The translations under genes and the position numbers were made by a program. 33,882 nucleotides of DNA from NCBI GenBank assembly GCA_001785195.1, contig MFTB01000019.1, forward strand, positions 1 through 33,882, given 5' to 3'. Each line of letters opens with the position of its first letter. The stretch's first letter is position 1. This DNA comes from Candidatus Muproteobacteria bacterium RIFCSPHIGHO2_12_FULL_60_33. GTDB taxonomy: Bacteria > Pseudomonadota > Gammaproteobacteria > Acidiferrobacterales > Sulfurifustaceae. This document shows positions 16,215 to 27,426 of the stretch, piece by piece. The notes below the pieces were generated by a model. The model saw only the letters and a list, made by a program, of their open reading frames with translations. It searched no databases and had not been told where the DNA came from.

Positions 16215-16235
16215 AAACGCTTCAACAAGAATTTG

Positions 16236-16318
16236 GAACCACAGATGAACACGGATTCACACAGATACCCGATCATTTCCTCTTAATCTGCGTTCATCTG
16301 TGTTTATCTGTGGTTTCA
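16236..16318. repeat. family B inverted repeat
   Basis: gaaccacagatgaacacggattcacacagat (16236-16266) pairs with atctgcgttcatctgtgtttatctgtggtttc (16286-16317). Confidence 0.85.
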
Positions 16319-18094: not shown

Positions 18095-18958
18095 ATGCCG
18101 CTGAAAAAAAAGGTCGGCATTCTGCTCGGCATCGGCGTCGCGGCCGCCATCATTTTCGGACCGCTGTGGTGGCGCCCAGCCGTTCCCTGCGTGGCCGGCG
18201 ACCTGACGGCGCGCGCGCAGGCACAGGTGCCTGATAACTTGAAAGAGATTTATCTCGATGCCTGGAACATGCAGTTCGGCCTGGGTTCGGCCGCCATCGG
18301 CGGCTGGCAAGGTTTGGGCGACGCCATCGCCGTGGGCGGTCTGGCGTGGGTACGCACCACCCGTGCCGATTCACCGAAATATTTCGCGACAGTCAGCAAC
18401 CGTTATTTTCAATCTAACGGCTTTGTGTACATCCCGCTCGAGCGCGAGCATGAATCGAGCTTTCGCCTGGAGCAGGTCGCACCGCTTGCGCAGCTGTGGG
18501 AATCGTTGGCCAAAAAATATCCGCAAGGCGTGATGTTCAGTGGATACGTACGCCTGGCGCCACTGCGCATCATCGCCATCGCGCGACCGGCCATTGACGG
18601 ACGCGCCGTGCTCAAAAACGCGCCATCCTATTACACGCGCCCGATGGAGTCAGCCCAAGAGGCATGGGCCTATGTCGTCGGCATCGCCACGGCCAAGTCT
18701 ACGATCTCACGCACTAACCGTGCCTGGTTGTCGTCCCTGCTGGCGGCCCGCCCCGATCGTGCCGGCAACGGCGTGGGACTGGCACATGCGCTGTGGCTCA
18801 AATCCGCGCCCGCCGATGTTCAGTCACCCCCGGCGCGCGCGAACGTGAATGCCGTGGGTCAGCTCGTGGCGGATCAAACGACACTGATGGAAGGGGAACT
18901 CAAACTTTATCCCGTGACCCGCGCCAGCGGCTGCGGTGATGTCGCGCGCGCCCGTTGA
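18095..18958 (+). CDS. uncharacterised membrane-anchored protein
   Basis: 287 aa with one N-terminal TM (VGILLGIGVAAAIIFGPLWW). No confident family assignment. Confidence 0.65.
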   Translation: MPLKKKVGILLGIGVAAAIIFGPLWWRPAVPCVAGDLTARAQAQVPDNLKEIYLDAWNMQFGLGSAAIGGWQGLGDAIAVGGLAWVRTTRADSPKYFATVSNRYFQSNGFVYIPLEREHESSFRLEQVAPLAQLWESLAKKYPQGVMFSGYVRLAPLRIIAIARPAIDGRAVLKNAPSYYTRPMESAQEAWAYVVGIATAKSTISRTNRAWLSSLLAARPDRAGNGVGLAHALWLKSAPADVQSPPARANVNAVGQLVADQTTLMEGELKLYPVTRASGCGDVARAR

Positions 18959-18984
18959 GTCAGAGACTCCTAAAAATAAAGAAA

Positions 18985-19184
18985 AATGGACAGGATTAAC
19001 AGGATTTTTCAGGATTTACAGGATTAAGGAAGGTCTGATTAATTATGACTATTTGACGCCAAGGCGCGAAGGCGCAAAGAAAAACCCGGAAAAATAACTG
19101 AAAAAATCTTTGCGTCTCTGCGTCGAAAATTAATAAATCAGAGTTTCCTTAATCTTGTTTTTAATCCTGTAAATCCTGTCCATT
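18985..19184. repeat. composite nested inverted repeat: family A arms enclosing family C
   Basis: Outer arms aatggacaggatt...aggattaaggaa (18985-19031) and ttccttaat...aatcctgtccatt (19145-19184). Inner gacgccaaggcgcgaaggcgcaaaga (19055-19080) versus tctttgcgtctctgcgtc (about 19107-19124). Confidence 0.85.
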
Positions 19185-20405
19185 CTAATTCAGCGTACGC
19201 GAGGCCGGTAAGAGCACATACAGTTTTCCCCGGCTGCGCAGCGCGCCCGCCACACGCTCGGCGTTTTCGCCGAAACCGAGAAAAAGATCGGCGCGCGCCG
19301 GGCCGCGAATCGCACCGCCGGTGTCCTGGGCGAACACCAGCCGCCGATAAGGAATCAATCCACAATCCGGCGATGGGCAGGATGCACAAGTGTCGCGGGC
19401 GCAGGGACCCGCGGAAGCGACCAGGGAGGTATCGAACCACACCGGGCTTCCCAGCGGGATGAAACCCGGGTCCACCGCGATGGAGCGCTCCGGCAGCAGT
19501 GGCACGTTGAGCGCGCCCACCGGGCCCGGGCTGTCCGGCTCGCGCACGGCGAAAAAGACATAACTCGGATTACTGTTCAGCACCGCCTGCGCCTTGTCCG
19601 GGTTGGCGCTGAGCCAGGCGCGGATCGCCGGCATGGTTGCCTCCTCCAGTTTCAGGGCGCCGGACTCGACCAGCGTGCGTCCGATGGCGACATAGGGATG
19701 ACCGTTCTGGTCGGCATAACCGACACGCAGCATCTTCCCGTCCGGCAACCGAATGCGACCGGAGCCCTGGATTTCGAGAAAGAACAGCGCCACCGGATCA
19801 TCGACCCAGGCCAGCACGGCAGCGTCGGGCGGACGTTTGCCGTTGCCGATCTCGGCGCGCGAATAATAGGGCACCACGCGGTTACTGTTCAGTCGTCCGC
19901 GATAACGCTTGCCCTGCAGTTCCGGGTAAAGCCCGCCGAGATCCACCACCACCAGATCATCCGGCCGTCCGTAGAGCGGGTAACGAAAGCGATCGGTCCT
20001 GACCAGATTTCCTTGCAACAGCGGTTCGTAATAACCGGTGATGAGCCCGTCAGGGACGCCGTTGTTGCCGGCCACTTCATGCGCGCTGAAACGCGTCTCG
20101 AAAAAGGCGCGCGCGGTATCGTCGTCCGGGTCGGGAAACAGCGCTGCATCGGCGCACAGATCGCTCCAGCGCGCATCGCGCGCGGGCATCTTCTGGCAGC
20201 TGCTCAGCAATGCCGGCCACGCCTGCGCGAGACTGTCGTCCAGCCAGCCCGGCAGCTCGGTCCAGGAAACCGGTTGGCCAACACCGGGTATTCGGGATGG
20301 CGTGCTGAGGCAGGAAGCCAGCAGACAGGCCAGACCGGCAAGAACCAGCGCACCGGCGGTTTTTTTCGTGCGGGATGTCAGGATATGATGGCTCGCTTCA
20401 CACAT
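19185..20405 (-). CDS. mltA: membrane-bound lytic murein transglycosylase A
   Basis: Lipobox LLASC, GYYEPLLQG, YPLYGRPDDLV, FFLEIQGSGRI, VGYADQNGHPYVAIG, AQDTGGAIRGPARADLF. Confidence 0.93.
   Translation of the reverse strand: MCEASHHILTSRTKKTAGALVLAGLACLLASCLSTPSRIPGVGQPVSWTELPGWLDDSLAQAWPALLSSCQKMPARDARWSDLCADAALFPDPDDDTARAFFETRFSAHEVAGNNGVPDGLITGYYEPLLQGNLVRTDRFRYPLYGRPDDLVVVDLGGLYPELQGKRYRGRLNSNRVVPYYSRAEIGNGKRPPDAAVLAWVDDPVALFFLEIQGSGRIRLPDGKMLRVGYADQNGHPYVAIGRTLVESGALKLEEATMPAIRAWLSANPDKAQAVLNSNPSYVFFAVREPDSPGPVGALNVPLLPERSIAVDPGFIPLGSPVWFDTSLVASAGPCARDTCASCPSPDCGLIPYRRLVFAQDTGGAIRGPARADLFLGFGENAERVAGALRSRGKLYVLLPASRTLN
19371..19414 (-). repeat. element E copy 2, in-frame inside mltA
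   Basis: Coding strand CGCGGGTCCCTGCGCCCGCGACACTTGTGCATCCTGCCCATCG. Encodes AGPCARDTCASCPS within an apparent insertion. Confidence 0.65.
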
Positions 20406-20453
20406 CGCATGATTTCTAGCACGTCCCACTCCATCCTGCCACAGAACTGATAC

Positions 20454-21200
20454 TTGGAAGCGCTCGATCCGACTTTGTTCCTGTGGCTGCTCGCCCTCAT
20501 CGCGGTGGCGGCCATGCTCTATTCCTCCGTTGGTCACGGCGGCGCCTCCGGCTATCTCGCGGCGATGGCGCTTTTCGGTGTATCGGCTTCCCTCATGAAA
20601 CCGGCGGCGCTCGCCATGAACATCTTGGTGGCGGGACTGGTGTTCGTGCGCCTGTGGCGCGCCGGGTTTTTCAACGCCCGGTTGTTCTGGCCGTTCGCGC
20701 TCGGTTCGATCCCGCTCGCGTTTCTCGGCGGTGCGATACAGCTGCACGAGCGCGCGTATCAGTTTCTCGTGGCGGCCGCCCTGCTCGTGGCGGCGTGGCG
20801 ATTACTTCTTGCCAGCCACGAACCACCGACACGCGAAGCGCCGCACCCGGGAGTAGCGCTGCCGGTGGGCGCCGGTCTCGGATTTGTCTCCGGTCTGACC
20901 GGCGTGGGCGGCGGGATTTTTCTGAGTCCGCTGCTGCTGTTCCTGCGCTGGGCCAACATGCGTACCACGGCGGCTGTCTCGGCGGCGTTCATCCTGATCA
21001 ACTCCGTCGCCGGTCTGGCCGGCCTGTTTACGGCCGGTGTCACGCTGCCGCACGGCCTGCCCTGGATGATGCTCGCGGCGCTGTCGGGTGCGGTCGTGGG
21101 TTCAGAGCTCGCCGTGCGGCGGCTGGCACCGGTGCGGTTGCGTCAGTTGCTCGGGGTGGTGCTGGTCATCGCAGCGGTAAAGATGTTCATCACCGCCTGA
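20454..21200 (+). CDS. TSUP (TauE/SafE) family sulfite exporter/permease-like protein
   Basis: TTG start, SSVGHGGASGYLA and GLTGVGGGIFLSPLLLF motifs, multi-TM. Confidence 0.88.
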   Translation: MEALDPTLFLWLLALIAVAAMLYSSVGHGGASGYLAAMALFGVSASLMKPAALAMNILVAGLVFVRLWRAGFFNARLFWPFALGSIPLAFLGGAIQLHERAYQFLVAAALLVAAWRLLLASHEPPTREAPHPGVALPVGAGLGFVSGLTGVGGGIFLSPLLLFLRWANMRTTAAVSAAFILINSVAGLAGLFTAGVTLPHGLPWMMLAALSGAVVGSELAVRRLAPVRLRQLLGVVLVIAAVKMFITA

Positions 21201-27309: not shown

Positions 27310-27412
27310 TTTACAGGATTCACAGGATTTTTCAGGATTAACAGGATAAAACCAAAAATGAAAATTCTAATTCATAATCCTGTAAATCCTGCTTAATCCT
27401 GTTAATCCTGTC
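27310..27412. repeat. family A inverted repeat in the def-fmt spacer
   Basis: tttacaggattcacaggatttttcaggattaacaggat (27310-27347) pairs with ataatcctgtaaatcctgcttaatcctgttaatcctgtc (27374-27412). Confidence 0.88.
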
Positions 27413-27426
27413 TATTTTTTCATCTC

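Follow-up and report, generated by a model that had tools for sequence, protein, structure and literature searches.

A triple-nested hairpin at a convergent gene junction and the probable kinship of its iteron arms to GxxExxY elements

In the genome of Candidatus Muproteobacteria bacterium RIFCSPHIGHO2_12_FULL_60_33, the gap between two convergent genes is filled by a hairpin at 18985-19184 that consists, with near certainty, of three inverted pairs nested inside one another: the arms of an A hairpin outermost, the ends of an IS5-like MITE in the middle and the arms of a C hairpin innermost (coordinates refer to the window, the whole 33,882-nt stretch of DNA that was analysed). The explanation we favour overall, and regard as probable, is that this triple nest was built by successive insertions and that its iteron layers are related to elements carrying a GxxExxY gene. 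That A and C are kin of these elements is itself very probable. Both belong to a class of hairpins that is very widespread, and they are best read as gene-less relatives, either non-autonomous or decayed, of a minute element whose gene-bearing form measures about 0.5 kb and consists of inverted arms of 7-nt iterons around a single GxxExxY gene. What is new here is the pairing of GxxExxY with iterons; the MITE layer is of a kind already known.

The hairpin lies between an ORF on the forward strand (18095-18958) and the mltA ORF on the reverse strand (19185-20747), and its 3' edge at 19184 is one base before the mltA stop codon (19185-19187). Folded as RNA, it forms one long nested hairpin of -94.2 kcal/mol, whereas shuffled sequences average -48.9 (z = -10.4; none of 200 shuffles folds as well). 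The A arms, 18985-19006 and 19163-19184, are 22 nt long and 95% complementary; the middle pair, 19018-19045 and 19131-19158, is 86% complementary and corresponds mostly to the MITE ends; and the C arms, 19055-19079 (GACGCCAAGGCGCGAAGGCGCAAAG) and 19108-19124 (CTTTGCGTCTCTGCGTC), pair within the fold. The left arm of A as a whole runs from 18985 to 19027, holds four CAGGATT units (ACAGGATTAACAGGATTTTTCAGGATTTACAGGATTAA), is bordered by an A-rich stretch at about 18971-18984 and includes, at 19024-19027, the left TTAA of the MITE's target duplication. The MITE follows over 121 bp (19028-19148), and the right TTAA (19149-19152) opens the right arm of A, 19149-19184. Both the A and the C arms consist of inverted runs of 7-nt iterons spaced 9-10 nt apart. 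This copy carries no GxxExxY gene, hence our term relative, or non-autonomous form. The original prediction, a 200-bp nested inverted repeat in which a C hairpin sits inside an A hairpin and which fills the gap up to the mltA stop, holds with regard to the repeat itself, its position and the pairing of both sets of arms; however, it counted two layers and missed the MITE between them. A known RNA family was considered as an identity for the structure and rejected: in Rfam no family exceeds its gathering score, and the sole match, MIR7504 (26.6 bits against a threshold of 83), is a chance match to a miRNA. No promoter consensus is present at the junction hairpin.

The MITE of the middle layer is of the ordinary IS5 type. 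Its terminal inverted repeats are GGAAGGTCTGATTAAT with the matching inverted end, and the unit that carries C, mostly 121-190 bp long with ends GGAAGGTCTGATTAATTA...TAATAAATCAGAGTTTCC, has many copies in the genome. Among 30 scanned pairs of MITE ends, 27 are flanked by identical 4-mers, 25 of which are of the form YTAR (TTAA, CTAA, TTAG, CTAG). The flanking 4-mer varies among copies, yet its two occurrences in any one copy agree; it therefore represents a target duplication and no part of the MITE end. Ends beginning with GGAAG, together with 4-bp YTAR target duplications, are the rule of the IS5 family; what sets the middle layer apart from other IS5-family MITEs is that its interior is the C iteron hairpin, or other hairpins. 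The C hairpin lies within the MITE and travelled with it. The sole DDE_Tnp_1 gene of this 79%-complete genome is not flanked by the MITE ends as a pair, and a search of the incomplete genome recovered no full-length IS5 bearing such ends. At four further loci (L242, L243, L032 and L235), IS5-like MITEs with the same ends enclose quite different hairpins, of the GTTCGTGGTGAGCCTGTCGAACCACGAAC or the GGGTGCGCCCTGCGCACC type, which indicates that the MITE repeatedly acts as a hairpin carrier. At another four (L018, L021, L022 and L026), a further conserved insert, the small hairpin GGCGCAGGAGCGGTACAGGGATGTACCGGTTGCGGAGCCGAGGACGC, sits in the left C arm and adds a fourth level of nesting.

The order of the insertions can be read from other copies. 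At L028 and L237 a similar MITE has split an A arm at its first TTAA, and at L032 a related MITE has split A at a TTAA beside the loop; hence A was present before the MITE. In the window copy, the MITE lies between the left-arm and the right-arm TTAA, and the loop of A, about 25 nt, is missing. Plausibly, the MITE inserted at the right TTAA and the loop of about 25 bp was then lost by slippage between TTAAGGA repeats. The sequence of events would begin with an A-type iteron hairpin settling between the two convergent genes, followed by an IS5-like MITE, already carrying the C hairpin, inserting at a TTAA of A. The successive nesting that had been proposed is upheld as to its order, but C entered inside the MITE and not alone into the centre of A.

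Within the 1.86-Mb genome, the 211-bp stretch around the hairpin has 82 matches, which sort into A-only hairpins, C-carrying MITE units and composites, and the A half-site pattern GACAGGATTNACAGGATT occurs 116 times, versus 0 times when read backwards; both counts are well above what chance would give. The A-only hairpins are about 100 bp long (e.g. L029, L030, L031, L033, L034, L037 and L039); one of them, at 27313-27419 of the same window, stands between divergent ORFs and represents the simple form of the outer layer. A composite like that at 18985-19184 is found on contig C75, with 81% identity over positions 6-200. This similarity is the point in favour of a single fixed 200-bp repeat copied whole, a reading that we nevertheless consider essentially untenable and reject: many copies consist of A or of the MITE alone, and the A/MITE junction varies among the composites. 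The genome-wide search suggested with the original prediction has thus returned all three forms, namely A alone, the MITE with C, and A enclosing the MITE with C. A-rich tracts flank both outer ends of the A copies, and the border of A, as estimated from conservation, is an A-rich tract followed by RACAGGATT; inspection by eye found no target duplication of A.

The hairpin could also have been kept by the host as a bidirectional terminator or as an mRNA-stabilizing 3' end, whatever its origin. The strong fold and the convergent position speak for such a use, as do the A-rich outer borders, which, read on either strand, place a T-rich tract behind the stem, and 13 of 33 A copies do lie between convergent ORFs. 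The other 20, however, lie between tandem or divergent ORFs, no terminator consensus is matched in 18800-19400, and four congeners (G001, G005, G007 and G008) have no A element at the mltA junction. We therefore think host use improbable as the main explanation, and it is in any case compatible with the insertion history favoured here. In a fifth congener, G006, the mltA junction holds an A-only hairpin whose arms come in reverse order, which may mean that it inserted independently.

The link to GxxExxY comes from the genes that the same iterons enclose. The genome has two GxxExxY genes (TIGR04256/PF13366), and both lie between inverted iteron arms. The one on contig C112 has inverted A arms around it, about 0.5 kb in all, and the one on contig C23 has D-type arms resembling a gene-less D-type hairpin of the window at 16234-16318 (ACCACAGATGAACACGGATTCACACAGAT and its inverted counterpart). 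A arms frame GxxExxY in this genome (G000) and in G002, G006 and G009, and arms related to C frame it in G002, G003, G007, G008, G013 and G014. In a larger set, GxxExxY scores above the cut-off in 64 of 399 Pseudomonadota genomes, and 60 of 89 loci have flanking arms that pair in inverted orientation with a score of 14 or more, with arm boundaries set from the conserved protein core and not from the gene start. The corresponding controls give 2 of 276 for shifted pseudo-genes in the same loci, 4% for arm pairs drawn from different loci and 20% for pairs in direct orientation. In an earlier count with gene-start boundaries, none of 95 other ORFs in GxxExxY loci was framed; such boundaries undercount because the arms overlap the first codons. 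A cross-phylum set, which spans many phyla and includes a Methanosarcinales archaeon, yields 53 of 79 framed loci versus 3 of 237 shifted controls. About a fifth of GxxExxY loci have no clear arms under this scoring. The arms comprise 2-4 units (e.g. ACCACGAAG, ACCGCAGAG, GACGCAGAT, ACCGCAAAG and ACAGGATT) at 9-10-nt spacing, the units resemble one another within a locus but not between loci, and GxxExxY is the only gene between them. The 5' arm often overlaps the first GxxExxY codons (L042, L134, L115 and others), with N-termini such as MKPQINAD read from the iterons; annotated GxxExxY starts may consequently be unreliable.

Furthermore, the arms are cognate to the protein that they frame. 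Protein distance correlates with arm distance (Mantel r = 0.39; 0 of 2000 permutations). In 47 of 57 cases, versus 18 expected, the nearest GxxExxY protein shares the unit class; the classes are roughly labelled, however, and part of the covariation reflects common descent. GxxExxY is present in 31 of 35 genomes that contain 10 or more iteron pairs of a single broad pattern, versus 33 of 364 others; within the dominant family of the sample the figures are 31 of 35 and 14 of 39, and the association at this level is partly confounded by phylogeny. Dispersed iterons in five genomes are biased towards the resident gene's unit (53:16 versus 5:19, p = 2e-6), one of the two groups behind this comparison being a single genome. 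Paralogues within a genome (43 pairs) are at most 68% identical, so they are never recent duplicates, and their arms differ. GxxExxY iterons are only one among several hairpin types in these genomes.

These observations also bear on whether some other enzyme, such as an HUH (IS200-type) or IS5 transposase or the host's replication and recombination machinery, spreads the hairpins, with GxxExxY a captured gene that only uses the arms. Three findings point in that direction. The genome of G005, 99% complete, retains 123 A half-sites without a GxxExxY gene, as is likewise seen in the incomplete genomes G004 and G018; C clearly moves inside IS5-like MITEs in the genome studied here; and no target duplication of A turned up. 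On the other hand, a single gene family occurs across many phyla between arms of many sequences, and protein and arm type covary, which counts against hitch-hiking because chance capture would not yield cognate arms. In addition, the four genomes with an A-framed gene have retained the same arms around it. That G005 lacks the gene agrees with a gene loss that left relics and, equally well, with another mover. On balance, we regard a hitch-hiking gene as unlikely and prefer GxxExxY as the partner proper to the iterons.

The orthologous site of the A-framed gene gives the best support for insertion into a hairpin centre, though from a locus other than the mltA junction. Orthologues of the gene of G000 occupy the same site in G002 (where it is broken by a stop), G006 and G009, and the element is absent from that site in G001, G005, G011, G015 and G018. 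Remnants of the A arms surround a C-type hairpin at this site in G007 and G008 and a CACAGAG hairpin in G003, and in G004 (L373) the site holds an unrelated palindrome, CCCTCTCCCTACGGGAGAGGG... / ...CTTCTCCCGGAGGGAGAAGG. The centre of an A hairpin can hence hold either the gene or other hairpins. The filling of hairpin centres, which the original prediction had put forward, gains support from G007, G008 and G003, where C or CACAGAG lies within A without visible MITE ends. At the same time, the A-framed gene is confined to a single orthologous site and so does not look self-mobile.

Both GxxExxY proteins of the genome match PF13366 (PDDEXK_3) and TIGR04256. In the family alignment G25, E28, Y31, D67, E77, K79, Q91 and Y95 are invariant or nearly so; they make up a PD-(D/E)XK core with ExK and a QxxxY motif, as found in nucleases of the RecB and Cas4 type. 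The predicted structure (pLDDT 90) finds LHK-Exo, the Cas4-family protein SSO0001, lambda exonuclease and the Holliday-junction resolvase Hjc as fold matches, with modest TM-scores of 0.4-0.5. From the modelled fold and the invariant residues, GxxExxY is predicted to be a PD-(D/E)XK nuclease similar to Cas4 and lambda exonuclease. The two proteins share their family match and fold with Cas4, lambda exonuclease and Hjc; they differ from these in being stand-alone proteins of 120-140 aa framed by inverted iterons, and the element contains no CRISPR or recombinase partner. PADLOC reports a weak Cas4-like similarity (E = 0.003). This similarity, along with the frequent overlap of the arms with the first codons, could suggest a defence or toxin-like nuclease for which the iterons serve as operators or self-recognition marks and the dispersed hairpins as decoys or marks. 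Inverted arms on both sides of the gene nevertheless exceed what an operator needs, and GxxExxY is the sole gene between them, which makes a regulatory or defence role very improbable in our view.

We infer instead that the hairpins, A and C among them, are moved or maintained by the nuclease and owe their spread to it. GxxExxY would recognize its cognate iterons, the arms would form a cruciform or hairpin that the nuclease cuts, and repair of the cut would spread, convert or refill hairpins in trans, much as is thought for RAYTs acting on REPINs. Whether GxxExxY acts on its arms is, judged from sequence, an evenly balanced question, to which the covariation of arm class and protein lends indirect support; movement of any of these hairpins was not seen. 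In its widest form, the proposal is that GxxExxY is the specific partner of pan-prokaryotic iteron hairpins (the CACAGAG, CACGAAG, CGCAAAG, CAGGATT and other types), the two forming a hairpin-based mobile or self-propagating system with a chemistry unlike that of transposases or HUH enzymes, in which gene-less hairpins nest and exchange centres. We lean slightly towards accepting it.

In its logic, the arrangement comes closest to the REPIN/RAYT (TnpA-REP) system (PMC3116915, PMC8266576). In both cases extragenic palindromes are dispersed through the genome, a cognate nuclease gene is flanked by the same palindromes, the gene copies are distinct and single per genome, and arm and protein covary; the paralogue pattern of GxxExxY resembles that of RAYTs, which are described as distinctive single-copy genes (PMC3116915). 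Two defining features nonetheless fail. The framed gene encodes a PF13366 PD-(D/E)XK protein and not an HUH (Y1_Tnp) protein, and the GTAG/CGTC tag is absent from the foot of A, where an A-rich tract and RACAGGATT are found instead. The GxxExxY arms differ, moreover, in being runs of 7-nt iterons that pair around the gene over hundreds of bases. Iteron hairpins of this sort are dispersed in many of the genomes searched, and GxxExxY/PF13366 appears in just three of 5.39 million open-access papers. We found no report in open-access full text that links the family to such repeats, a search by which subscription papers could be missed; the same literature yielded no enzyme tied to these iteron hairpins and nothing relevant on combinations of repeat, nuclease and MITE, and longer iteron strings had no match in the papers listed, 8-mers giving chance matches only. 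The link to GxxExxY would offer an origin and a testable partner for very common bacterial repeats, and it makes the spread of hairpins accessible at the bench, with a single small protein and a defined site on the DNA. REPIN/RAYT logic would thereby gain a second case, with an unrelated enzyme.

Finally, a second, unrelated protein was observed in the same framed architecture. Stand-alone S23 / four-helix-bundle genes (23S rRNA IVS; PMC4990558), of the family TIGR02436, are likewise tiny elements with one small gene between inverted iteron arms, and 15 of 27 of their loci score at least 14 (L256, L257, L265, L269, L272, L275, L283 and others). Their protein is unrelated to GxxExxY and their iterons differ, being of the TAGGCAG, AGTAGTG, TGTGAGA and TGGCGAA types.
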